Origin: Micromonospora sp. M71_S20
GTDB lineage: Bacteria; Actinomycetota; Actinomycetes; Mycobacteriales; Micromonosporaceae
Assembly: GCF_003664255.1 (NCBI RefSeq)
Contig: NZ_RCCV01000004.1
Span: forward strand, 248,001 to 312,000
Reading direction: 5' to 3'
Length of the DNA stretch: 64,000 nucleotides
In this document: positions 24,212 to 39,421 of the stretch, in pieces
Numbering within the stretch: the stretch's first letter is position 1
How the letters are laid out: every line of letters starts with the position of its first letter
Position numbers and translations under genes: made by a program
The notes under the pieces: generated by a model
The model's database searches: none
Seen by the model: only the letters and a program-made list of their open reading frames with translations
Told to the model about the DNA's origin: nothing

Positions 24212-24280
24212 TGTGCACCCCAGAATGGTGCACATATGATGCGTGCACGTGTTCGAATCCCCCCTCGGACACGTTATTTC
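24212..24280. other. candidate attachment site: inverted repeat and tRNA-3'-end-like sequence beside the recombinase
   Basis: tgtgcacc (24212-24219) and ggtgcaca (24227-24234) form a perfect 8-bp inverted repeat. Immediately after, gttcgaatcccccctcgga (about 24252-24270) looks like the T-loop and 3' acceptor half of a tRNA gene, but no matching 5' half or paired T-stem is present. It lies at the 3' end of a large serine recombinase gene, where an att hybrid would be expected. The call rests on resemblance and position. Confidence 0.4.
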
Positions 24281-25791
24281 CACACGAAGCGTGATGATTC
24301 TTCGTGCTTTGCGTGATCCCCGTCCCGTTGGGCGGGGATTTTTGCTGTGCCGGCGAGGCTGCTTCCCTGTGGGTTGAGCGGGTGGGCCGCGGTCTCGGCT
24401 TCGACGGTCCAGGTGTGGTGGTCACACACGACGATCATGTTGTTGGCGCGTAGGTATGCGGTGACCTTCTCCGGGTCGGGGCTGCGCAGCGTGGGATGGT
24501 GCCGGTGCAGTCTGCGGTCATGTCGGAGGCGGTCCAGCAAGTGGTCTCCCCGGATGTAGAGGATCTTCGGCTGTCGGGTGGTCTTGGTTCGGGTGCTGGT
24601 GTAGCCGTGGCGGCAGCGGTAGCCGGGACGGCCGTGGACCCAGTGGGAGTCCATCAGGCGGCCGCAGGCGCCGCAGCACACGAGGCCGGCCAGGCGGTAG
24701 CGGCGCGTAGCGCCGTCCGCGGGGGTGGGCGCGGTGTGGATGGCTTGGGCGGCGACGAACTGTTCCTCGGTGACCAGCGGCGGGTGGGCGATCTGTCGGG
24801 CGACGACCCACTGCGGGGCGGCGTTCCAGCGCTGGACCTCGCGGTGGCGCGTGAGGGTCCCATCGGGTGTGAGGTCGTCGTGGTCGGTGCGTTGCCGGTT
24901 CCACACCTGGCGGCCGGTGTAGCGGGGGTTGGCCAGGATCGCCGCGACTGTGGTCAGCATCCAGGCGTGTGCGCTGCGGTGCCGATTGCGCGCCGGGTCG
25001 GCGTCAGATGGGCATTGCACGTCGTTGTCGTTGAGTTCCCGGGCGATGCTGGCCACGCTGCGCCCGGCCAGCCGCTGCTCGAACATCCAGCGGACGTGGG
25101 GTGCGGTGGCGGGGTCGGGTTCCAGGCGGTGCAGGCGCCGCCCCCAGGCGGCGTGGGCGCGGTTCGGGTGAGGGCCGGCGTCGGCGAGCCGGTAGCCGTA
25201 GGGCGGTCGACCGCCGAGGTGTCGTCCCTGCGTCTCGGCTTGGGCGCGCATGGCCGCGGTCGTGCGGTGGCGCGCTCGGGATACCTCGCGTTGGGAGTGC
25301 ACGCCCAATAGGTCCAGCAGTGCCAGTTGTCGGGGGTTGTCGAAGTCCACCGGACCGTAGGTTTCCGGTAGCCACAGCTGTACACCGTGCTTGAACAGGG
25401 TTGGGGCGAGCTGTTCGAGCTGTTGGCCGTGGAAGGCGCGTTCGTACTCGCCGACGACGATCGCGTCGAACCGGCGTGCCGGGTCGGCCAGTGCGGCGAG
25501 CAGCAGGGCCGCCTGCGGCCGGTCCGGCCAGGCGATCCGGCGGGAGACGCCCTCATCGAAAAACTCAACCACGATCCGGCCATGCCCGACGACCAGGTCC
25601 TCGGCATAGTTGCGCTGCCACCGGCACGACGACGCCCGATCCTGGAAGTCGACCGTGGACATCCGGCCGTAGAACGCGAACCGCAGCCCATCCGTAGCGG
25701 TGGTGAACCGCCGTGGCCGTAGCTTCCGCTGCCCGGCGGCCCAGGACGAGAGCGTGCTTCGTTCGGGTGCTGCCGTCGTTCTCGTCGCCAT
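24274..25791 (-). CDS. large serine recombinase/integrase
   Basis: A 505 aa protein. The resolvase domain starts at about residue 36. FYGRMSTVDFQDRASS gives Y41, R43 and the likely nucleophile S45. A recombinase domain follows (GGRPPYGYRLADAGPHPN, SVASIARELNDNDV, AILANPRYTGRQVWNRQR). Then comes a zinc ribbon (LVCCGACGRLMDSHW, GYRCRHG) and a C-terminal tail. This is the architecture of site-specific integrases of phages and integrative elements. The tail after about 470 (NPQGSSLAGTAKIPAQRDGD) overlaps a terminator and the att-like site, so the exact C-terminus may reflect the integration junction. It probably mobilised the accessory segment to its right or left. Confidence 0.92.
   Translation of the reverse strand: MATRTTAAPERSTLSSWAAGQRKLRPRRFTTATDGLRFAFYGRMSTVDFQDRASSCRWQRNYAEDLVVGHGRIVVEFFDEGVSRRIAWPDRPQAALLLAALADPARRFDAIVVGEYERAFHGQQLEQLAPTLFKHGVQLWLPETYGPVDFDNPRQLALLDLLGVHSQREVSRARHRTTAAMRAQAETQGRHLGGRPPYGYRLADAGPHPNRAHAAWGRRLHRLEPDPATAPHVRWMFEQRLAGRSVASIARELNDNDVQCPSDADPARNRHRSAHAWMLTTVAAILANPRYTGRQVWNRQRTDHDDLTPDGTLTRHREVQRWNAAPQWVVARQIAHPPLVTEEQFVAAQAIHTAPTPADGATRRYRLAGLVCCGACGRLMDSHWVHGRPGYRCRHGYTSTRTKTTRQPKILYIRGDHLLDRLRHDRRLHRHHPTLRSPDPEKVTAYLRANNMIVVCDHHTWTVEAETAAHPLNPQGSSLAGTAKIPAQRDGDHAKHEESSRFVWK
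24316..24343 (+). terminator. plus-strand terminator with T-run
   Basis: atccccgtccc-gtt-gggcggggat forms a strong stem (one bulge) followed by five Ts on the plus strand. It would stop transcription coming from the WD40 side and lies within the last codons of the convergent recombinase gene. Confidence 0.6.
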
Positions 25792-28014: not shown

Positions 28015-28626
28015 TCACGGCCAGTTGATCTGACCTAAGTTATCGAGTTCCGCCTCGTCTTCCTCTAGTAGCGTGGCAATGTCGTAAAGCATGTCCGCTA
28101 CGTCTGTCCATGCTGGCTGGGCCGATGCGCCAGTGTCCCGATAAAACTCCATCACGCAGCCGTTTTTTGGGCCGCCGCGCAGGTCCACGAATAGATTCCC
28201 GCCGCCGTGGTTGGTGGCGGCAGGCAACCAGGCAGGCAGCCAGAACTCGCAAACCGTTCCGGCTGGCCGATTGTTCTCCGAATTCACAAAGTCGTCCCAC
28301 TGGTCGAACGGTGCGATCTCACGAGTGACGTCCATCCACAATCGGCGGCTTTTCAACGCTTCAGCGACCGGGTAAGGCACGAAGCCTGGCGGGATAAGCC
28401 ACACGGCGTCGGTCTGAAGGCCGAAATGCGCCCCGTCGGCGTACAACCACCAGGCCCGCAGGTCCGGCGGCAGTGGCTGGCCGACTGCCTCCTGCGCCGC
28501 CGTCAGGTCGGCCTCAGACGCCGGCGGTCGTAGAGCCGCGCGGGCCCGGGGCGCGTGCTGTTGAAGCCACGTGTCAATGCGACCTATCGCTGCCGCCGCG
28601 ACCGCCGCACGATCTGCACCCGCCAT
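28015..28626 (-). CDS. SMI1/KNR4 (SUKH) family protein
   Basis: A 203 aa protein from ATG 28626 with an AAGGG site. PPASEADLTAAQEAVGQPLP and LRAWWLYADGAHFG form the canonical SUKH start (the family's ExxLP, W-D/G region). FVNSENNRPAGTVCEFWLP and GGGNLFVDLRGG form the conserved end. SUKH proteins are widespread as immunity proteins against polymorphic toxins and as regulatory proteins. No toxin gene is visible beside it, so an orphan immunity protein is possible. It is cytoplasmic. Confidence 0.85.
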   Translation of the reverse strand: MAGADRAAVAAAAIGRIDTWLQQHAPRARAALRPPASEADLTAAQEAVGQPLPPDLRAWWLYADGAHFGLQTDAVWLIPPGFVPYPVAEALKSRRLWMDVTREIAPFDQWDDFVNSENNRPAGTVCEFWLPAWLPAATNHGGGNLFVDLRGGPKNGCVMEFYRDTGASAQPAWTDVADMLYDIATLLEEDEAELDNLGQINWP

Positions 28627-28734
28627 GTTCACCCTTTCGATCGCCGAACCAGGCCGCCTGCCAGGGCAGTGGTGCCCTGGCGGGGTGGCCGCCGAGCATG
28701 GACTCACTCGCTCGCTCGAAGGACGACCATGACG

Positions 28735-29334: not shown

Positions 29335-29580
29335 GTGGACCGCGTGCTGGTGGAGTTCTACGGTGGGCCGCTCGACCGCGAGCAAAGAGTGACATCCGCC
29401 CTACCCGTCGTCTGGCCGTTGCCTGCGTCGGCGACATGGGCGGATCAGCCGGTGGTGAACCTCGAGCAGCCGCGGCTGAAGGAACGGATGCTCTACGTAA
29501 GGCGAATTGATCCAGTGACCGGGCGGTTAGCGATCAACGAGGCAGGTCTGGTCATCTACGACTTCCGCGGCTACCTCTGA
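29335..29580 (+). CDS. small conserved-looking hypothetical protein
   Basis: An 81 aa protein from GTG 29335 (MDRVLVEFYGGPLDREQRV) ending YDFRGYL. The composition and the FYGGPLDG-like opening resemble small actinobacterial and phage hypotheticals. There is no membrane segment or catalytic motif. Function is unknown. Confidence 0.6.
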   Translation: MDRVLVEFYGGPLDREQRVTSALPVVWPLPASATWADQPVVNLEQPRLKERMLYVRRIDPVTGRLAINEAGLVIYDFRGYL

Positions 29581-29823: not shown

Positions 29824-31092
29824 TCAGAGCATTGGTGAACCATAGAGCAGACGGTTCGGCGAACCGTTGCCAGGATTGGTCACCACGCCCAGGGTCGCGC
29901 TCTCGACCAGAAACGCGTGCACCTGCGCCGGGGTCCAGGTCGGATTCTTGCTCAGCACCCGGGCGGCCATCCCCGCCACATGCGCGGACGCCTGGAGGGT
30001 GAGGCTGATGGACTTGACCGCGGTGTCCGAGTCAGGGGAGGCAGACACGACGTCCACGCCGGGGGCGAAAAGGTCGACGCAGGGGCCGAAGTTGGAGTAG
30101 GAAGGCCGGGCGTCATTGGATTGGATGGACGCGACGGTGATGACGGTGGGCACCGAACCAGGGGAGTCATTGCAGGCGTTCTGGTTCACGTCGCCAGCCG
30201 GTGTCGTTATGACGATGCCGTCGTCGACAGCATTGGCGACCGCCGTGTTCAGCGCGGTGCTCATACCGCCGGCCAACACGAAGTCACCGACGGCGGGCGG
30301 ATCCCAGGGGCTGTTGTCGGCGACCACCCAGTCGACGGCGCCGATCAACGCGCTGAGGGTGCCGTTACAACTGGGCAGGCCGACCGAGACCAACTCGACG
30401 TTCTTGGCGACTCCGTACGTCGTTCCACCGATGATGCCGGCCACATGCGTGCCAAGGGTCTTGAAGCAGCTGGCGGCATAACCGTGGTGGGCCCGACCGC
30501 CGAACTCCTGGTGGGTGGTGCGGATTCCGGGGCCGATGACGTAGACCCGGACCCCGGTACCTTGGCGTACGAAGTTGTAGGTGGTGTCGAGTCCGACCGG
30601 AGCATCGATCCGGTCCAGGTTCCAGGGTGCGTTCGGTTGAGCGGTGGACGGCTGCACCGAAGCCGTCTCGGGCACCTTGACGGCCTGGTCCTGCTCTACG
30701 TAGGCCACCGCCGGATCGGCGGCGAGCCGCCGGGCGACCGCCTCAGAGGTCCGCACCGAGAAGCCGTTGAGGGCGTCGCCCCACACCTGGTCCGGCATTG
30801 TGCCGAATCGACTGGCCAGTGCCCGGGCTGCGCCGGACACGGTGGACTTGCGGCTACCCGCCGAGCCCGCGGCCGCACCGTCCTTGAGCACCACAATGTA
30901 TTCGCCCGGCACTGCGGTCGCCCGGCCGGCCCCGAGGATCTCGCCGACGGCATTCCCGGTCCGTCCCGGATTGGCGGCCGAGGCCGCTGGTTGCGTGAAT
31001 ATGACGGCAGCCAGCGTGGCGGCGACGAGCGCCACGGCATTGCGCCCGGGTCGACGGGTGGGAACGAGTGTCACTCTTCGCGGGTATTCCAT
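29824..31092 (-). CDS. secreted S8 subtilase homologue lacking all catalytic residues
   Basis: A 422 aa protein from ATG 31092 with a GAAGGAG ribosome site. Residues 1-40 are a signal peptide, about 62-135 an I9 propeptide/inhibitor domain (GEYIVVLKDG, AVAYVEQDQ) and about 150-420 a peptidase S8 fold. The expected triad is gone. Asp is G187 (VYVIGPGIRTTH instead of VYVIDTGI), His is L213 (KTLGTHVAG instead of GHGTHVAG) and Ser is L366 (SLTLQASAHVAG instead of SGTSMASPHVAG). The oxyanion Asn is also replaced, by D301 (TPAGDVNQ instead of AAGNDNQ). The frame is otherwise uninterrupted and the fold residues are retained, so this reads as a maintained pseudo-protease rather than a random wreck. 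A binding or inhibitor-sequestering role is only inference. Confidence 0.88.
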   Translation of the reverse strand: MEYPRRVTLVPTRRPGRNAVALVAATLAAVIFTQPAASAANPGRTGNAVGEILGAGRATAVPGEYIVVLKDGAAAGSAGSRKSTVSGAARALASRFGTMPDQVWGDALNGFSVRTSEAVARRLAADPAVAYVEQDQAVKVPETASVQPSTAQPNAPWNLDRIDAPVGLDTTYNFVRQGTGVRVYVIGPGIRTTHQEFGGRAHHGYAASCFKTLGTHVAGIIGGTTYGVAKNVELVSVGLPSCNGTLSALIGAVDWVVADNSPWDPPAVGDFVLAGGMSTALNTAVANAVDDGIVITTPAGDVNQNACNDSPGSVPTVITVASIQSNDARPSYSNFGPCVDLFAPGVDVVSASPDSDTAVKSISLTLQASAHVAGMAARVLSKNPTWTPAQVHAFLVESATLGVVTNPGNGSPNRLLYGSPML

Positions 31093-31500
31093 CTACCAAG
31101 CTCCTTCGTTCTCGTTGCGGCAAGGGGTCGCCAATGCCCGTGCATTGCCCGGTTGGTTTGCCGGACTCTACAGCCAACGGCAGCCGCAGAGGGACGCCTT
31201 GGGTTGATGTACGCATTGCCATGCGTCGTTTTCGCGGTGACTGACAAAATCCGATTCACATGTATCAAACAAGCCGCTGACGCATCATGCGGAGTCGGCG
31301 CACGCGCCCTCGGCGTACGCCGGATGGGGTCAGGTCGCGAGCCTCATCCGATCAGCGGCGCGGCGCCGGGCCGGCCGAGAGGCCGGCGGCCGGCCCGGGC
31401 CCCCGGCCCGAGGCCGATTACCCCTGTGGAGCGCCCGCCATGACCTGTGCCGGCACGCCACTGGTCATGGGCTGCCCCGGCTTACGCGGAGGTGGATTGA
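31093..31500. other. intergenic region, no gene recognised
   Basis: About 400 bases upstream of the pseudo-protease. The first 200 bases are less GC-rich (gtgactgacaaaatccg near 31240) and probably hold its promoter. A GC-rich tract with ggccggccgagaggccggcggccgg-like inverted segments lies at about 31368-31400. No coding frame looks real. Confidence 0.5.
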
Positions 31501-31537
31501 TTGGGAGCTTGTATCACTTGATGTTGAAGAGAGTGGC

Positions 31538-32168
31538 ATGGGACGACGGGGCTACCACCGAAGTTCAAGCGCAAGGTCTTGGCCTGATCGAGTCCGGCCG
31601 GTCGGTGACCGACGTGGTTCGGGACCTGGGCATCAGCGGTCAGTCGATATACACCTGGCGGCGACAAGACCGTATTGAGCGTGGCCTGGTGCCAGGGCTG
31701 AGTAGTGCGAAGAAGAGGAACTGACTGCGGCGAAGCGGCGGATCGCGCAGCTTGAGGTGGAGTTGCACGCCACCCGACACGCGATGGAGTTGGTGCGGAG
31801 GTGGTGCCTCCAAAAGACGCTACGAGGCGGTCAAGGTATTAATGGCCGCCGAAGGCATCCCGGTGGAGGTGGCGTGTCGGGTGGTCGACGTGTCGACGTC
31901 GGGCTACTACGAGTGGCTGACCCGGTCGATCGACGCCTCCCGGCCGCCGCACTGGTCACCAACGCCCTGGGCATGGCCATCGACAGTCGATGGTCAGCAG
32001 CCGGCACGATCATCCATTCCGACCAGGGCGTGCAGTCGCCTCCTGGGCCTTCACCACACGCGCCCGCGACCCCGGGCTGATGCCATCGATGGGCGGCGTC
32101 GGCGACTGCTGCGACAACCCGCGCTCCGTTCGGTACGCCCGCCGGCGGCCCGGCCCAGGGGCTTGCTA
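31538..32168 (+). pseudogene. IS3-family (orfA/orfB) remnant with frameshifts and an internal deletion
   Basis: The reconstructed order is LDLIESGRSVTDVVRDLGIS with QSIYTWRRQDRIERGLVPG (OrfA HTH), then LTAAKRRIAQLEVELHATRH (zipper), RRYEAVKVLMAAEGIPVEVAC and TSGYYEWLTRSID (OrfB start). There is a jump to ALVTNALGMAIDSRW and GTIIHSDQGVQ (DDE region), then GLMPSMGGVGDCCDNPRSV. Several indels and a missing middle section make it dead. It is a different IS3 subgroup from the element at 20418. Confidence 0.8.
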
Positions 32169-32274
32169 GCCGCGGGGTGAACATCGGTCGTCGACTTGCC
32201 GTTTCCCTCGGGGCGAGGGCTCGGCCGGCCATAGGATCTCTGCGGCCGGCCGTGCCGACCGCGAAAGGGTGACG

Positions 32275-33627
32275 ATGGAGATTCGAGCCGGAGCCAGGGG
32301 CCGGGTGGTCATGCTGGTCGACAACGCGGTCCAGGGCGACTCCCGGGTGCAGAAGTCGGCCCGGTCGGCCGCCGCCGCCGGCTGGGACGTCACCCTGCTG
32401 GGCCGCTCGCCCGACGGGGAGCCGCACCGGTGGCGGATCGGCGAGGCCCTGGTGCGGCTGCTGCCGATGGGCCGTCCCGGCGCGCCCGTGCGCCGGACGA
32501 CGCGCCGGGACGCGGCGGCGCTGCTCGCGCGCCTCGGCCTGCGGACGGCGGTCGAGCGGGCGTACACCCGACTGTGCCTGCGGCTGTACGGTGACCGCGC
32601 CTGGCGCCGGTTGCAGCCGGCACTGTGGAGCTACGAGCACGCCTACGGCCCAGTGCTCGACGAGTTGGCGCCCGATCTGATCCACGCCAACGACTTCCGC
32701 ATGCTCGGCGTGGGTGCACGAGGGCTCCTGCGGGCCAGGGCCGCCGGCCGCCGGGTCAGCCTGGTGTGGGACGCCCACGAGTTCCTGCCGGGCATCAAAC
32801 CCTGGAGCGACAACGTGCGGTGGCTGCCCGCCCAGTTGGCGCACGAACGGGAGTACGCGCGCCACGCTGACGCGGTGGTGACCGTCTCGCCGGAGCTGGC
32901 CCGCCTGCTGCAACGCGAGCACGACCTGCCCGAACTCCCCACCGTCGTGCTGAACGCCCCCGACGGTCGCGAGGTCGGCGACAGGCCCGTGCGGGCCACC
33001 GAGACCCTCCGCGCGGGGTTCGGCCTCGGGCCGGCCGACCCGCTGCTGGTCTACAGCGGCGCCGCGGCGCCGCAGCGCGGCCTCGACGTCCTGGTCGAGG
33101 CGCTGCCGCTGCTGGCCGGCGTGCACGTCGCGCTGGTGGTCAACCATCCCGACGGCGAGTACGTCCGGTCGCTGACGGCACGGGCGGCCGACCTTCGTGT
33201 CGGCGACCGCCTGCACGTGCGGGGGTACGTGCCGCACGACGGGGTGGTGCCGCTGCTCGCCGGGGCCGACCTGGGGGTGATCCCGATCCAGCACTGGCCC
33301 AACCACGAGATCGCGCTGATCACCAAGTTCTTCGAGTACTCGCACGCCCGGCTGCCGATCGTGGTGAGCGACGTGCGCACCATGGCCGACACCGTCCGAG
33401 CGACCGGGCAGGGCGAGGTGTTCCGGGCCGGGGACGCCGAGGACCTCGCCCGCGCCGTCCGGGCCGTTCTCGCCGACCCCGGCCGGTACCGGGCGGCGTA
33501 CGACGACCCTGCCCTGCTGGCGGGGTGGACGTGGGAGCGGCAGGCCGTGGAACTCGATCGGGTCTACGCCCGGCTGGTGCCGATGGGCGTCGCCGGCGGG
33601 GCGCACGCGTACGGCCGTGTCGGCTGA
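32275..33627 (+). CDS. GT4 family glycosyltransferase
   Basis: A 450 aa protein. ATG 32275 is preferred to GTG 32269 because the GAAAGGG site is then correctly spaced. The N-terminal Rossmann half begins VVMLVDNAVQGDSRVQKSAR (GT4-like). The C-terminal half has the donor-binding block LVYSGAAAPQRGLDVLVEAL, YVPHDGVVPLLAGADLGVI and FFEYSHARLPIVVSDV with the family's E-x7-E-type region. It probably adds a sugar to a surface glycan. It overlaps the following GT2 gene by 11 bases, so the two are co-translated. Confidence 0.9.
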   Translation: MEIRAGARGRVVMLVDNAVQGDSRVQKSARSAAAAGWDVTLLGRSPDGEPHRWRIGEALVRLLPMGRPGAPVRRTTRRDAAALLARLGLRTAVERAYTRLCLRLYGDRAWRRLQPALWSYEHAYGPVLDELAPDLIHANDFRMLGVGARGLLRARAAGRRVSLVWDAHEFLPGIKPWSDNVRWLPAQLAHEREYARHADAVVTVSPELARLLQREHDLPELPTVVLNAPDGREVGDRPVRATETLRAGFGLGPADPLLVYSGAAAPQRGLDVLVEALPLLAGVHVALVVNHPDGEYVRSLTARAADLRVGDRLHVRGYVPHDGVVPLLAGADLGVIPIQHWPNHEIALITKFFEYSHARLPIVVSDVRTMADTVRATGQGEVFRAGDAEDLARAVRAVLADPGRYRAAYDDPALLAGWTWERQAVELDRVYARLVPMGVAGGAHAYGRVG

Positions 33628-35233
33628 ACCCGTGGCCGCCGGCGCGCCGGCGGCGGGTCCTCGGGGCGGCTCCCGGCTGCCCGACGTGACCGTCGTCGTA
33701 CCCGTGTACAACACGATGCCGTACCTCACCGGGTGCCTGGACTCGCTGCTCGGACAGAGCATCGGCACAGACCGGATGCAGATCGTGGCGGTGGACGACG
33801 GGTCGACCGACGGCAGCGGCCGGCAGCTTGATCGCTACGCCCGCCGGTATCCGGGCACCGTGACCGTCGTGCACCAGCCCAACTCCGGCGGCCCGGCGGC
33901 GCCCTGCAACCGGGCCCTCGACCTGGCCACCGGGCGGTACGTCTTCTTCGTCGGCGCGGACGACCGCCTCGGTCCCGAGGCTCTGGAACGGCTGGTGGCC
34001 GCCGCCGACCGGTACGGCTCCGACGTCGTCCTCGGCCGGGTGGTCGGGGTGAACAGCCGCTACGTCCACCAGGAGGTCTTCGCCCGTACGGCGGTGGACG
34101 TCGGGCTGGCCGACTCGGCCCTGCCGCTGTCGTTGGCCAACACCAAGCTGTTCCGGCGGGAACTGGTCGAGCGGCACCGGCTGCGGTACCCGGAGGACAT
34201 GCCTATCGGCAGCGACCAGCCGTTCACCCTGGAGGCGTGCCACCGGGCGGCCCGGGTCACGACCCTCGCCGACTACGACTACTACTACGCCGTGCGGCGG
34301 CTGAACGCCCGGAACATCACCTACCTAAGCCGGGCGGAAGAGCGGCTCGACTGCGCGCGGCGGCTCGTGGAGTTCGCCGTCGGCCTGATCCCACCGGGCG
34401 ACGAGCGGGACGCGGTGCTGCGGCGCTACTTCCGCTTCGAGGTGGCGGCCCTGCTCGACGACGACTTCCTGCGGCTGGACGGGCCGACCCGCGAGCTGCT
34501 GCACGCCGCCGTACGGGAGCTGGCCGGGCGGCACCTGACCGCCTCCGTACGGGACCGGCTGCCGGTGGAGACCCGACTGCGGATCGGGGTCGCCGAGCAC
34601 GGCACGCCCGACGACTTGGTCGACGTGATCCGGCAGGACGCGGAACGAGGCGTGCCGTCGACGGTCTTCGAGGGCGGCCGGCGGTACGCGGCGTATCCGG
34701 GCTTCCGGGGGTCGCACGGCCGGCTGCCCGACGGCGTCTTCGACGTCACCGACGCCGTGGACTGGCTGGCCCGGTTCGAGGTCACCGACATCGGCTGGGA
34801 CCGCGACGCCGACGCGGGGCCGGCCCTCGTCCTGGACCTGCGCACGCCCCTGCCCGACCTCGACCGGCTCTGCCCGGGACCACCGCGACTCACCGCCGGC
34901 GAACTGGCCGGCGTCGTACGGCCCGCCACGGCCACCGGCAACACCATGCTGCGGGCCCGGATCAGCGTGACCGAGGTGCTGGGCGCCAGCGCGGTGACCG
35001 GGCAGCGCCGCCCCGTACACCTGACGCTGCCCGCGCCCGACGGCCGGCCCGGGACCGCGCCGCTGCGCGCACCCCGCCGGGTCCGGTTTCCCCGACCGGT
35101 GATCCGGCGGCGGGGGCGGCGCTGGTACGCCGTCTCGCCGGTGACCGACGGCAGCGGCCGGTTGATGATCTCCGTGGTGCCACTGACCCCGCGGCGGGTG
35201 CTCGCCCGGCTGGTCACCCGCCGCCCTTCCTGA
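33617..35233 (+). CDS. GT2 family glycosyltransferase (teichoic/surface-polymer type)
   Basis: A 538 aa protein from GTG 33617. The GT-A domain (residues about 15-240) has VTVVVPVYNTMPYLTGCLDS, VAVDDGSTDGSG, NSGGPAAPCNRALD and FFVGADDRLG (the DxD-equivalent). SDQPFTLEACHRA near residue 200 is the conserved acceptor-side motif. The C-terminal 300 residues form a helical linker and a beta-rich domain, as in wall-teichoic-acid-type GT2 enzymes such as TarS relatives. It is probably cytoplasmic and membrane-associated, and works with the GT4 partner. The polymer is unknown. Confidence 0.88.
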   Translation: MSAEPVAAGAPAAGPRGGSRLPDVTVVVPVYNTMPYLTGCLDSLLGQSIGTDRMQIVAVDDGSTDGSGRQLDRYARRYPGTVTVVHQPNSGGPAAPCNRALDLATGRYVFFVGADDRLGPEALERLVAAADRYGSDVVLGRVVGVNSRYVHQEVFARTAVDVGLADSALPLSLANTKLFRRELVERHRLRYPEDMPIGSDQPFTLEACHRAARVTTLADYDYYYAVRRLNARNITYLSRAEERLDCARRLVEFAVGLIPPGDERDAVLRRYFRFEVAALLDDDFLRLDGPTRELLHAAVRELAGRHLTASVRDRLPVETRLRIGVAEHGTPDDLVDVIRQDAERGVPSTVFEGGRRYAAYPGFRGSHGRLPDGVFDVTDAVDWLARFEVTDIGWDRDADAGPALVLDLRTPLPDLDRLCPGPPRLTAGELAGVVRPATATGNTMLRARISVTEVLGASAVTGQRRPVHLTLPAPDGRPGTAPLRAPRRVRFPRPVIRRRGRRWYAVSPVTDGSGRLMISVVPLTPRRVLARLVTRRPS

Positions 35234-35314
35234 CGGGCCGCCGCGAGGCCGGGGCCGCCCCGAGCCAGGCGAACGGCGGCCGTGGGCCTTCGGCGGCCCG
35301 ATGCCGGCCAGCGG

Positions 35315-36334
35315 CTACCGCAGGGCGAGCGGGGCCACGGCCAGGTGCCGGCGGTTGTCGAGTGCCCGCCACTCCAGCGCGTGTCGGATACCGTCCTCGA
35401 TGCCGAAGCGCGGCGACCATCGCAGCAGGTCCTGGTAGCGGCGGCTGCGGTTGTAGACCCCCGGGACATCGCCCGGCCGCCGGGCGGCCTCCCGGTACGG
35501 CAGGGGATGGCCGGTCACCGCGGCGAACGCGGCCAGCAGTTCCCGGACCGTGGTGCCCACCCCGGTACCGATGTTGAGCGCGGCGTACCCGTGCGGGCCG
35601 GCGGCCGTCACCTCGTCGAAGCGGGTCAGGGCGGCCACGTGGGCCTGGGCGAGATCCCACACGTGGACGTAGTCCCGGACGGCGCTGCCGTCGCGGGTGG
35701 GCCAGTCCGTGCCGGTGATGTGGAACTCCGTGCTGGTCGTGGCGGCCTCGATCATGCGACCCAGGGCGTGCGTCGGGTGGAGCAGTTGCAACCCGGTGCG
35801 CAGCAGGGGATCGGCCCCGATGGGGTTGAAGTAGCGCAGCGCCACCGCCCGCAGCTCCCCGGCCCGCGCGCAGTCGGCCAGCACCGCCTCGACCATGGCC
35901 TTGCTGCGGGCGTACGGGCTGATCGGGTCGACGGGGGAGGACTCGTCGACCGCGAAGTCCGTACCCGGCCGGTAGACGGCGGCGGTGGAGCTGAACAGCA
36001 CCCGACGGCACCCGTTGCGAACCAGGTGGCGGACCAGCTCGACGGACTTGGCGAGATTCTCCCGGTAGTAGCGCAGCGGGTCGCGGGTCGACTCGGGTAC
36101 CACGATCATCCCGGCGCAGTGCACGGTGGCCCGGATCTCGGGGTGCTCGGCGAAGATCCGGTCGACCAAGTCGCCGTCGGCGATGTCACCGCGATAGAAG
36201 GGGCGACCGGCCGCGAAGGACGCCCGGCCGGTCGACAGGTCGTCAAGGATCACCGGCGTGATGCCCCGGTCCAGCAGCGCGGAGCCAACCGTGCTGCCGA
36301 TGAAGCCGGCACCACCGGTGATCAGATACTTCAT
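35315..36334 (-). CDS. galE: UDP-glucose 4-epimerase
   Basis: A 339 aa protein from ATG 36334 (MKYLITGGAGFIGSTVGSAL), the expected family start; the 8-codon upstream extension is not needed. It has the NAD motif GGAGFIG at 7-13, DDLSTG at 31-36, the catalytic FSSTAAVY with Y141/K145 in YARSKAM, and LRYFNPIGA. It interconverts UDP-Glc and UDP-Gal (or the N-acetyl forms), feeding the neighbouring glycosyltransferases. It is convergent with the GT2 gene at 35233 and adjacent to a second GT2 on its own strand. Confidence 0.9.
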   Translation of the reverse strand: MKYLITGGAGFIGSTVGSALLDRGITPVILDDLSTGRASFAAGRPFYRGDIADGDLVDRIFAEHPEIRATVHCAGMIVVPESTRDPLRYYRENLAKSVELVRHLVRNGCRRVLFSSTAAVYRPGTDFAVDESSPVDPISPYARSKAMVEAVLADCARAGELRAVALRYFNPIGADPLLRTGLQLLHPTHALGRMIEAATTSTEFHITGTDWPTRDGSAVRDYVHVWDLAQAHVAALTRFDEVTAAGPHGYAALNIGTGVGTTVRELLAAFAAVTGHPLPYREAARRPGDVPGVYNRSRRYQDLLRWSPRFGIEDGIRHALEWRALDNRRHLAVAPLALR

Positions 36335-36350
36335 GCTCGTCACCGTTCCG

Positions 36351-37508
36351 TCACCCATCCGCGCCGACGGGCGCGTTCGAGCTGGTCCGAGCGGGTTGCG
36401 CCGGCCGTGGCCGCAGCGACCGGCGCAGCCGGCCCGCCGCCCTGTGCGCTGCCCGCAGGGCCGCCCAGACTACGTACGCGTCGTGGCGCACCATCCGGTG
36501 CTTGAGCCCGGCGATCCCGCCGGGTCGGGGGTAGCCGGCGGCGGGCAGCCACCGCCGGTAGTCCGCCGCCATGCGGCGGAAGAACGCCCGGCGGTCCTCC
36601 GGCGGTAGCCGGAGGTCGTTGCCGACGATCACCAGGTAGTGGTCGAGCATGACGCGGAACAGGTCGGGCCGGAACCGGTCCGGGGCGTCGCCGCCGGCGG
36701 TCGCCAGCCAGCCGAACACCGAGGCGTACTGGTCGAAGACCTCGAAGTGCCGCGAACTCAGGGTGGCGGTGATCCGGTCGCGGGGGCGCTGCCGGTAGTG
36801 GTAGCAGTCCCGCTCCAGCACGTCGATACTGCTGGCGGCGATCAGCAGGGGATGACTGTAGGCGCAGTCCTCGTACCAGCCGGGCCGGAAGGAGAGTCCC
36901 AGCTCGGTCAGGAACGTACGGCGGACGAGCTTGGTGCACGCGGACTGGGCGAGCATGAGCAGCTCGGGCCGGTCGGCCAGGCGCAGCGGGGCGCGTCGCC
37001 CCCCGAGGGCCAGCCCGGACGGCCGGGCCACCACCCGGCCGTCGGGGAACACCTCGGCGTGGTCGACGATCAGCACGTCCGGGCGGGTGTCCGCGAGTCG
37101 CTCCCGCACCGCCGCGACCGCGCCGGGCGGCAGCCAGTCGTCACCGTCGACGAACCAGAGGTAGTCGCCGGTGGCCTGGGCCGCGCCAGCGTTGCGGGCG
37201 CCGCCCAGGCCGGCGTTCTTGGCCAGGCGGACCACCCGCACCCGGGGGTCGCGCGTGGCGTACTGGTCGAGCAGCCTCCCACTGCCGTCCGGCGAGGCGT
37301 CGTCCACCGCGACGACCTCCACGTCCTCGGCGCCGGGTTGGGCGAGGATCGAGTCGAGGCAGGTCGCGAGGTACGCCTCGACGCCGTGCACCGGAACGAC
37401 GACGGACAACGTCGGGCGGTCGGCTGGGGTATCGGCACCGTCCACGGCTGGGACTATGTCGAGGCACCCCGACCGTTCCGCCACGCGCAGGTGAACTGGG
37501 CCTGACAT
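36351..37508 (-). CDS. GT2 family glycosyltransferase
   Basis: A 385 aa protein. ATG 37508 is chosen; the frame is open further upstream to 37769 but only through a lectin remnant. The GT-A core has LSVVVPVHGVEAYLATCLDS, VVAVDDASPDGSG, GLGGARNAGA and WFVDGDDWLPPG (DxD). WYEDCAYSHPLLIAAS at about 235-250 is the acceptor-side motif. The C-terminus is basic and rich in arginine, probably for membrane contact. The stop is 17 bases from the galE start, so the two form an operon supplying UDP-Gal to this enzyme. Confidence 0.87.
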   Translation of the reverse strand: MSGPVHLRVAERSGCLDIVPAVDGADTPADRPTLSVVVPVHGVEAYLATCLDSILAQPGAEDVEVVAVDDASPDGSGRLLDQYATRDPRVRVVRLAKNAGLGGARNAGAAQATGDYLWFVDGDDWLPPGAVAAVRERLADTRPDVLIVDHAEVFPDGRVVARPSGLALGGRRAPLRLADRPELLMLAQSACTKLVRRTFLTELGLSFRPGWYEDCAYSHPLLIAASSIDVLERDCYHYRQRPRDRITATLSSRHFEVFDQYASVFGWLATAGGDAPDRFRPDLFRVMLDHYLVIVGNDLRLPPEDRRAFFRRMAADYRRWLPAAGYPRPGGIAGLKHRMVRHDAYVVWAALRAAHRAAGRLRRSLRPRPAQPARTSSNAPVGADG

Positions 37509-37566: not shown

Positions 37567-37750
37567 TCAGGCGGGCACCGTCCACTTCTGGTTCGCGCCA
37601 CCGGTGCACGTCCAGATCTGGGTCGGTGTCGCGTTGGCCGAGCTGTTGTCCAGCACGTCCAGGCACTTGTCCGCGCTGGCGCTGACCAGGTCGCGGGCCG
37701 CTGTCGCGGTCCACCGCTGGTTCGCCGCGCCGGTGTGTCGGCGACGCGTG
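37567..37750 (-). pseudogene. ricin-type beta-trefoil lectin (CBM13) C-terminal fragment
   Basis: The minus-strand frame ANQRWTATAARDLVSAS, KCLDVLDNSSAN, TPTQIWTCTGGANQKWTV gives two QxW repeats of a ricin B-like domain, with a stop at 37567. It ends upstream at the ISL3 element (37757), so the catalytic or N-terminal portion has been cut off, probably by events linked to that insertion. Confidence 0.7.
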
Positions 37751-37756
37751 AAATCG

Positions 37757-39421
37757 GGCTCTGGCACACATTCTGTGATTGATCTTGGCGTCAGCTCATG
37801 GTGTAGCGAGGACTCGTTTGCGGAGGAGGTCGAGGTTCGCCCGGCCATACATCTGCCGCTTGATCGTCTTGATGCGGTTGACCTGGCCTTCGACCGGGCC
37901 TGAGCTCCAGGACAGGGTGAGGCCGGCGAGGACGGCGTCGCGGTCGCTGGCCAGGCCGGCGGCGAAGCCGCGGATTTCGGGGTATCCGGCGTGCCGGGCA
38001 CGGTTGATCCAGACGTCGAGGTGCTGGCCGGTGCCCTGGTGGCGGACCAGTGCGGCGAACCCGCGGGCGAGGTCGGCGACAGTGTCGAGGTCCGGGCACC
38101 GGCCGCGGGCGTCGGCGAGATCGGTGCGATCGTCGTCCGTCAGTTTGTGTCCGGGTCGCATGATCCAGGCGGTGATCCGCCGGGCTGACGGCACTCGGAC
38201 GGCCACGGTGGTGGGCCGGGTGCGGTTCACGGCAAGCCAATCCCGCAGCACGCGCAAATTCCCCTGATAGCCCCGGGCCAGGATCTCGGCGTGCAGGTCG
38301 GCTGTCTCGTGGACACCGTCGGTAAGTCGTTGCCGCAGGTAGAGGTGGAACGGGGCGAGGACGCTGGGTCGGCTGCTGGCGTTCGGGCCGATCAACGCTT
38401 CGGCGGTGGCGGCGTGGGCGTACTTGCGGGCGGTTCTGACGTTCATGTCGAGCCGGCGGGCGGTCGCGCTGATCGACAGTCCTTCGGCCCGCAGGGCGTG
38501 CACGGCGGCGTGGCGTTGGCGGGTGTTCTCCGCGCGGCGTCCCGTCCTGACCGCCTCGGCCGTGGTCGGCGCGGCCAGGGCAGGTATCGAAACGGTGTCC
38601 TCGCGCAGGCACCGACGGTGCCCACGAACGACCTTCTCGACCGCGTCGCTGAGGTTCTTCAGCAGGTGCCACCGGTCGGCGACCTGAACCGCGTCAGGTG
38701 CTCCCTTGCGGGCGCCGTCGGCATAGCTACCACCACGATCCCGACAGATGATCTGGACCCCGGGGTGCTCGCGCAGCCATGCGGCGAGAGCGTCGGCGGT
38801 GCGGTCGGGCAGGACATCGATCGACCGGCGGGTGTGCATGTCGAGTAGGACGGTGGCGTATCGGTGCCCGCGACGGCGGGCGAAGTCGTCCACGCCCAGC
38901 ACCGTCGGCGTCACCAGCGGCGAGTCAGGCATCCTCCGGATCATCCGGATCAACGTCATCCGAGACACCGACACCGCCAACCGCTGCGCCAACCGGCTGC
39001 CCGATCGACCGCCCAACGCCACCGCGACCGCTTCCAGATCACCCGCCGCCAGGACCGTGTGACGGGCATGCCGACGGGTCAGCCCGGGAACCTGCTCGAC
39101 GAACGTCCGCCGCTGACACCCGACGTTCGAGCAGGCGAATCGGCGGACCGTCAACGCGACCAGCACCTCATGGCCACCCAACCTGACATCGGCCAGCCGC
39201 CGCACATAGCGGCCATGCACCGCGGTCGACCAGGTGCCACAAGCACCGCACGACGCCCGCACCGTCCGCGTCGCCGCATCGATCCTGACCCCGACGCCCC
39301 GGACCACCACCGCGTCCAACCGCAGGCCCACCAGATGCGGAAGCAACGCCGAAATGATCTCCATCCGGGCACCCAACCCGAACTACCGACGAGCGCGACT
39401 CACAAAATGTGTGCCAGAGCC
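37757..39421 (-). mobile_element. ISL3-family insertion sequence
   Basis: 1665 bp with near-perfect terminal inverted repeats. ggctctggcacacatt (37757-37772) on the left matches its complement ending at 39421, with one mismatch in the next six bases (tctgtga versus tttgtga). It encodes one transposase. The 8-base flanks (tgaaatcg and aaggttga) are not direct repeats, which ISL3 elements normally make. The element has therefore probably taken part in a deletion or rearrangement joining a lectin gene remnant to a TIGR02391 gene remnant. Confidence 0.9.
37796..39364 (-). CDS. ISL3-family transposase
   Basis: A 522 aa protein from ATG 39364 (a TTG four codons earlier, at 39376, is also possible). 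The N-terminal zinc region is complete (CGACGTWSTAVHG, RRFACSNVGCQRRTF). Next come an HTH (RSGSRLAQRLAVSVSRMTLI) and the DDE domain with VLGVDDFARRRGHRYATVLL, IICRDRGGSYADGAR and GPVEGQVNRIKTIKRQMYG. Full length and intact, so the element may be active. Confidence 0.95.
   Translation of the reverse strand: MEIISALLPHLVGLRLDAVVVRGVGVRIDAATRTVRASCGACGTWSTAVHGRYVRRLADVRLGGHEVLVALTVRRFACSNVGCQRRTFVEQVPGLTRRHARHTVLAAGDLEAVAVALGGRSGSRLAQRLAVSVSRMTLIRMIRRMPDSPLVTPTVLGVDDFARRRGHRYATVLLDMHTRRSIDVLPDRTADALAAWLREHPGVQIICRDRGGSYADGARKGAPDAVQVADRWHLLKNLSDAVEKVVRGHRRCLREDTVSIPALAAPTTAEAVRTGRRAENTRQRHAAVHALRAEGLSISATARRLDMNVRTARKYAHAATAEALIGPNASSRPSVLAPFHLYLRQRLTDGVHETADLHAEILARGYQGNLRVLRDWLAVNRTRPTTVAVRVPSARRITAWIMRPGHKLTDDDRTDLADARGRCPDLDTVADLARGFAALVRHQGTGQHLDVWINRARHAGYPEIRGFAAGLASDRDAVLAGLTLSWSSGPVEGQVNRIKTIKRQMYGRANLDLLRKRVLATP

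Follow-up and report, generated by a model that had tools for sequence, protein, structure and literature searches.

A Micromonospora subtilase clade that has lost its catalytic residues: candidate secreted pseudoproteases under purifying selection

The window, a stretch of 64,000 nucleotides from Micromonospora sp. M71_S20, carries on its minus strand (29827-31092, plus the stop codon) a gene for a 422-residue subtilase in which the catalytic Asp, His and Ser and the oxyanion Asn have all been replaced. We favour, at a probability of about 0.5, the reading that its product is a dead and probably secreted S8A pseudoprotease, that this kind of protein arose once in Micromonospora, and that it was selected for a non-enzymatic job in which the uncleaved chain binds a partner. 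The four losses define a single clade, purifying selection has acted on the gene since, and the clade shares changes of the linker and the substrate groove.

The gene and the loss of its catalytic positions

The protein belongs with the aqualysin/proteinase K-like subtilases and carries an I9 prodomain. Among solved structures, its best-ranking relatives are aqualysin I, proteinase K-like enzymes and a Meiothermus keratinase. Pfam Peptidase_S8 is found at residues 214-404 (3e-24; PF00082 at 86.2 bits, cut-off 21.8) and Inhibitor_I9 at residues 65-140 (8e-8; PF05922 at 33.3 bits, cut-off 21.2). A generic subtilase model of PADLOC matches at 40.6 bits. The NCBIfam type VII mycosin model TIGR03921 reaches 70.7 bits against a cut-off of 278.75. 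An earlier note on this DNA had described a 422-codon frame at 29824..31092 free of stops and frameshifts, with the I9 prodomain retained and the fold motifs GTHVAGIIGG and HVAGMAARVL in place; translation and the Pfam matches agree on every count, and we add the strand (minus), which the note did not give. A plausible ribosome site (GAAGGAG) lies 5' of the gene. Overlying it on the plus strand is an open frame of 508 aa (29917-31443), which we take to be the usual shadow of G+C-rich coding DNA; homology and the omega analysis favour the minus strand. From the signal-like look of its N-terminus, judged by eye, the protein is probably secreted. The features of the gene are as follows.

29824..31092, minus: S8 pseudoprotease gene, 422 aa, stop included (translation, Pfam, omega)
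30973..31092, minus: signal-like N-terminus, residues 1-40, ending IFTQPAASAA (by eye; fast-evolving)
30673..30900, minus: I9 prodomain, residues 65-140 (PF05922, 8e-8; omega 0.109 over 62-140)
30640..30672, minus: lengthened I9-to-catalytic linker, residues 141-151 (length comparison of E133..W157)
29827..30639, minus: catalytic domain, dead by its residues, 152-422
30532..30534, minus: Gly187 codon (GGC) at the catalytic Asp position (Gly in 9/9 clade members; Asp in 112/112 others)
30454..30456, minus: Leu213 codon at the catalytic His position (Leu in 9/9; His in 111/112 others)
30190..30192, minus: Asp301 codon at the oxyanion Asn position (Asp in 9/9; Asn in 107/112 others)
29995..30003, minus: Leu364-Thr365-Leu366 in place of Gly-Thr-Ser, the nucleophile motif (Leu364 in 9/9; Gly in 112/112 others)

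Alignment to homologues puts Gly187 at the Asp site, Leu213 at the His, Asp301 at the oxyanion Asn and Leu366 at the Ser, exactly as had been proposed by eye. Nearby, the Gly two residues ahead of the Ser, present in all 112 of the other homologues considered below, is Leu364, and Pro370, a Pro in 103 of those 112, is Ala. With Gly, Leu, Leu and Asp in place of the triad and the oxyanion residue, the protein is by its residues a non-peptidase homologue of S8 and not an S8 peptidase, and the loss of catalytic activity is predicted on the same basis.

Homologues were collected in a protein search in which 3835 proteins passed E 1e-60 among 7994 scored candidates, and the best 120 of the 3835 were examined. 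Eight of the 120, the window protein included, form a dead group in which Gly replaces the Asp, Leu the His, Asp the oxyanion Asn, and Leu or Ile the Ser; the other seven are 78-84% identical to the window protein and come from Micromonospora matsumotoense, rifamycinica, carbonacea and haikouensis and from strains WMMD730, WMMD987 and Rc5. An orthologue found in the genome referred to here as G012 brings the clade to nine members, of which six have Leu and three Ile at position 366. The earlier note had asked whether the same four substitutions recur in other species: they do, in other Micromonospora genomes and in 9/9 clade members, and since eight further sequences carry the same losses, chance or sequencing error is ruled out. 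The other 112 of the best homologues read DHNS (106), DHSS (4), DHGS (1) or DQNA (1), so that all of them keep the Asp and 106 keep all four residues; “triad-intact” is used below for a judgement made from residues alone and does not imply activity.

A single branch, supported at 100, separates the nine dead members from all other proteins in a tree of 92 rows (the G012 protein, the six paralogues from the same genome and 85 of the best 120 homologues); this stem measures 0.47 changes per column, longer than any branch inside the clade. The neighbouring group consists of twelve proteins, eleven of which have all four residues. The root is unsure because the outgroup does not fall on one side of any branch (one row is misplaced), and the unity of the clade is independent of where the root lies.

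All seven other database entries of the clade are named “S8 family peptidase”, a name which misleads on activity. Their frames are open and three are shorter at the N-terminus; two of 361 aa (P0007 and P0008, the carbonacea and haikouensis entries) have no signal stretch, their first residue corresponding to residue 61 in the window protein, probably as an effect of start-site annotation. The gene is rare: searches of 160 genomes from the genus and of 354 from the family each gave two with a copy at least 79% identical, and every other genome match at the set thresholds was 61% identical or less. These are counts of close copies, since the best few candidates per genome (11 or 5) were scored. 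The search of genome contigs for related loci also returned five remote loci.

Purifying selection after the loss

Codon analyses used the DNA of two of the nine clade members, the window gene (L001) and the G012 gene (L009), and the omega of the clade thus rests on one pair. Pairwise codon likelihood over 354 gap-free codons from residue 45 on gave an omega of 0.054 for this pair and of 0.060-0.159 for seven pairs of triad-intact relatives analysed in the same way. YN00 returned 0.062, and the NG86 ratio was 0.29, compared with 0.34-0.65 for six pairs within the sister group. A branch model of nine genes over the same number of codons (354) estimated omega at 0.066 in the clade, lower than the 0.124 of the remaining branches with the stem counted among them (2dlnL 9.9), and an omega of 1 in the clade was rejected (2dlnL 220, with DNA from 2/9 members). 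On the stem itself omega was 0.20, which is not significantly raised (2dlnL 3.2). The likelihood models were fitted by purpose-written scripts on a single tree from a single starting point, and dS is large; when codons of residues 62-422 were resampled 60 times in a bootstrap, omega spanned 0.040-0.108.

Constraint is unevenly spread along the protein. Between the two genes, omega is 0.052 in the catalytic domain and 0.109 in I9 (62-140), as against 0.68 in residues 1-61 and 0.53 over 10 codons of the linker, and in neither of the latter two was an omega of 1 rejected. The earlier note had argued that random decay would rarely strip all four active-site positions and spare the rest, had proposed to test for selection on an inactive binding protein, and had named dN/dS as a measure to take. 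The roles it offered (prodomain sponge, inhibitor decoy, toxin or surface ligand) are conjectural, whereas selection on an inactive protein is supported by the recurrence of the losses together with a dN/dS which, for the two genes with DNA out of nine, lies far below 1 and below that of other branches: the gene encodes a predicted pseudoprotease under selection, with losses fixed in 9/9 members and an omega of 0.066 (DNA of 2/9).

These values bear directly on whether the gene is a decaying pseudogene, an explanation to which we give next to no credence. It would fit the rarity of the gene, the transposase-like frame nearby (31287-31724) and a GC3 of 0.818, below the 0.923-0.979 of the six paralogues in the same genome (the G012 gene has 0.903). 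Against it stand the rejection of omega = 1, a frame that is open at both DNA loci and in seven protein entries, and upstream sequence conserved between two unlinked loci (see below). With omega as estimated and the losses recurring in 9/9 members, decay was rejected.

Linker, groove and a possible uncleaved form

Compared with triad-intact relatives, the window protein has a longer linker and shorter active-site loops. From E133 to W157, the span linking I9 to the catalytic domain, clade members have 24-25 residues (9/9) and the others 16-18 (112/112), the linker of the clade thus being 6-9 residues longer. The loop before the lost His has 12 residues in the clade versus 15-19 in others, and the segment 242-255 has 14 in 9/9 members versus 16-17, two or three fewer. 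The stretch which we take to be the substrate strand, going by its location in subtilases, reads FVLAGG in the clade and MSLGG in many others.

From residue 62 on, 41 positions are clade-specific, i.e. invariant in the nine and shared by less than 10% of the 112 others. Twenty-eight of the 41 fall within six stretches totalling 71 residues around the lost active site and the substrate strand (187-188, 206-220, 236-257, 263-274, 294-301 and 364-375), the stretches having been drawn after the list of positions had been seen. Near the site, most of the replacements bring in an apolar residue or Gly (Leu213, Leu364, Phe210, Val272), with Ser236, Asp254, Thr297 and Asp301 as polar ones. Five active-site segments are invariant at 59/75 positions in the clade versus 25/75 in 12 sister sequences, and the rest of the domain at 138/196 versus 66/196, the sister set being also the more diverse of the two.

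Strong conservation of the active-site segments within the clade is what would be expected if the protein were still catalytic through relocated or different residues. We consider this very improbable: none of the 41 clade-specific invariant positions is a gained His, and the only Cys among them, Cys209, looks like a conserved Cys shifted by one place. The four cysteines of triad-intact relatives, which presumably form disulfides, are kept (the G012 protein has one extra in its N-terminal stretch). A relocated triad is unlikely since there is no gained His, the cysteines are as in triad-intact relatives, and the changes are to apolar residues or Gly. The rewritten groove also bears on the idea that the protein is a decoy which soaks up protein inhibitors of subtilases and so shields the active proteases of the cell. 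The overall fold is predicted to be kept, as are the four cysteines, which would suit a decoy, but the groove is where such inhibitors dock, and we regard this idea as improbable. Subtilisin inhibitors of the SSI family (PF00720) were found in 0/8 genomes, both carriers included; the control genomes were silent too.

How the protein may work is best set out as a series of conditional steps. It would have originated as a copy of an active aqualysin-like protease that kept its ancestral upstream region, and would be exported, with the I9 domain helping it to fold. Lacking the triad, it would be unable to cut its own junction between I9 and the catalytic domain, and the two-domain chain would persist uncleaved and permanently. 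The longer linker would make it easier for the uncleaved chain to run from the lost active site to where the catalytic domain begins, and would keep I9 tethered over a one-time active site that has been rebuilt and made apolar. In this form the protein would bind a protein or peptide partner outside the cell. Secretion, the absence of self-cleavage and the tethering of I9 are parts that we infer; we place the binding face at the groove, the region richest in clade-specific features, given also that constraint is stronger on the catalytic domain than on I9.

An AlphaFold model puts I9 in its canonical docking place, which was the outcome the earlier note had hoped a model would decide. That placement holds weakly, because the prediction fails when triad-intact homologues are left out of the alignment: from eight clade sequences only, the model collapses (pLDDT 26.8, pTM 0.21). 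Docking of the two domains is for this reason only inferred. In the full model, I9 and the catalytic domain together superpose on PCSK9 and on an unautoprocessed pro-subtilisin E, over 329 residues each. The latter, a structure titled “unautoprocessed form of IS1-inserted Pro-subtilisin E”, would fit an uncleaved chain, and we take this only as a hint. PCSK9 differs in having a C-terminal domain and in retaining the triad with which it cleaves itself; as it is an animal protein, the likeness is structural only.

The linker evolves fast, so other proteases might also cleave it and free I9. Another explanation has the protein controlling, in trans, the active S8 proteases of its own cell, through a released inhibitory I9 or through pairing. 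We hold it possible but doubtful. I9 is constrained (omega 0.109), and both carriers have other S8 genes; in malaria parasites SUB1-ProM, which resembles a stand-alone subtilisin propeptide, inhibits SUB1 (PMC6993865). The catalytic domain is tighter still (0.052), however, which a mere inhibitor would not need. Nor does a close sister seem to be needed: the four other S8 matches of G012 are only 41-48% identical, and one of them has an internal stop.

Genomic setting, relatives and precedents

Besides the window gene, the M71_S20 genome holds six S8 genes which are 44-55% identical to it over most of their length, plus a partial match at 31%. All six keep Asp, His and Ser, and five keep the Asn. 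In G012, where all 39 candidates were scored, the relative with one TGA inside the matched stretch (L057, G012:C1:5212284-5213567, 41% identical) is perhaps a broken copy. Since G012 has no other S8 above 48% (39/39 scored), it is unlikely that the protein depends on the closest kind of triad-intact paralogue as an obligate partner. There is no second S8 gene beside the window gene, whose contig (C4) gave no other match from this genome, and none in the 20 kb around the G012 copy, which counts against regulation in trans.

The family contains other departures from the usual residues. A group with the oxyanion Asn changed to Ser, the triad kept and a linker of 19-20 residues comprises a paralogue from the same genome (L004, C2:16377-17612) and six loci; the Asn-to-Ser copies in L016, L024, L025, L029, L030 and L050 lie near another S8 gene. 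Micromonospora sp. NPDC023956 has three related S8 proteins (P0018, P0020 and P0027), seemingly on one contig. P0027, the DQNA protein, 54-55% identical, has Gln for His and Ala for Ser, and P0020 has an odd HATH motif, from which it follows that catalysis has been lost more than once in the family. The loss in P0027 is separate and partial, confined to one genome inside a mostly triad-intact sister group, and its linker has an ordinary length of 18.

Upstream of the gene, two blocks were recognised.

31241..31267, minus: upstream block TGATACAT..., shared with triad-intact relatives (TGATACA[TC] pattern)
31163..31181, minus: second upstream block GCCNTTGGCNGTAGAGTCC, common to both clade loci

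The TGATACA[TC] pattern occurs 157 to 282 bases upstream in 2/2 clade loci, 9/12 triad-intact loci of the wider clade (membership assigned by tree or by motif) and 0/20 other S8 loci, a count over 34 loci that leaves out L008, L026, L032 and loci fetched later. GCCNTTGGCNGTAGAGTCC matches at 17/17 specified bases in both loci, compared with 13 in the best of 200 single-base shuffles, a score that is partly circular as the pattern was derived from the same two loci. A 24-base pattern made from the block of the relatives (at most one mismatch) matched in the M71_S20 genome only upstream of the paralogue L002, and did not match the diverged block of the window gene itself. Because L002 was the only match, the block is taken to be inherited and not the marker of a regulon, and the upstream region apparently came along with the gene from its ancestor. 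The window gene and L002 may be expressed together; the presence of the block before this paralogue would fit similar timing of expression, a point in favour of a trans regulator.

The neighbourhoods of the two clade loci differ. On one side of the window gene lie a small open frame with no Pfam match (29335-29580) and, beyond it, an SMI1/KNR4 (SUKH-1) gene (28015-28707, minus; PADLOC PDC-M40A match at 47.8 bits), whose protein turned up in no genome but its own among the 41 searched. On the other side is the transposase-like frame (31287-31724, plus; Pfam HTH_Tnp_1 at its residues 92-137) followed by a frame with no Pfam match (31752-32180, plus), by eye an IS3-type remnant; both sit just upstream of the conserved block of the S8 gene. 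Further out are a large serine recombinase with Resolvase and Recombinase domains (24274-25791, minus), where G+C is lower than at 32-38 kb of the window and the region is possibly mobile or variable, and glycosyltransferase genes (32269-36358), one with a TarS-linker domain, beside a frame that is epimerase-like by eye, which may be a locus for cell-surface sugar or teichoic acid. The G012 copy is flanked by a MarR regulator and a halogenase-like flavoprotein. Comparison of the whole window with 20 kb around the G012 copy revealed no common adjacent genes; besides the S8 gene there was one weak match, between 37567-38001 (minus) of the window and L043:18369-19688 (minus), at 34% over 115 aa and 70% over 183 bases of DNA, 6-7 kb from the S8 gene in each carrier. 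By eye it resembles a ricin-type lectin domain, and it is probably a common domain. In the best 70 rows of a comparison with six triad-intact loci, no neighbours were common to these and either clade locus, while triad-intact loci shared neighbours among themselves (G132/G137/G143; G143 and G077; G011 and G071).

Subtilase pseudoproteases as a general kind are already known, and the nearest bacterial precedent is CspC/CspA of C. difficile, likewise a bacterial subtilisin fold with catalytic residues lost. According to PMC6636752, CspC has lost catalytic residues, does not autoprocess and keeps its prodomain bound in the solved structure; CspC and CspA act as a signalling heterodimer (PMC12880746). 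In CspC/CspA, two triad residues are changed, a jelly-roll insertion of about 130 residues sits in the subtilase domain, and the role is in the spore beside the active CspB (PMC6636752), whereas the window protein has a signal-like N-terminus, four lost positions, no insertion and no linked partner. The jelly roll is absent in that the catalytic part aligns to aqualysin (276 residues) with no large insertion, and the NCBIfam CspBA model does not match the window protein (P0001) at E 0.01. Compared with S8A enzymes of the aqualysin I/proteinase K type, the difference lies in the missing catalytic Asp, His, Ser and oxyanion Asn. We tentatively suggest, at somewhat less than even odds, that a secreted protease of digestive type became in Micromonospora a permanently uncleaved pro-subtilase whose centre, substrate strand and linker were rebuilt together, an extracellular binder or sensor that would be an independent counterpart of CspC.

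In a survey of 91 prokaryotic genomes (PMC2605481), 42 of 966 proteins from five families were putative inactive serine protease relatives. Literature searches, with subscription journals mostly outside their coverage, gave among the matches listed no paper on the Micromonospora group and, within the same scope, none on a secreted aqualysin-type pseudoprotease for which a defined clade shares the replacement of all four positions together with a rewritten groove. To our knowledge, few bacterial subtilase cases come with an evolutionary argument for function. In this clade the order of events is partly readable, with the centre lost and the groove rebuilt on one stem, followed by a constraint tighter than on other branches. 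The dead subtilase offers a system from a soil bacterium in which to ask what a dead protease does and whether its prodomain may turn into a lasting part of the fold.
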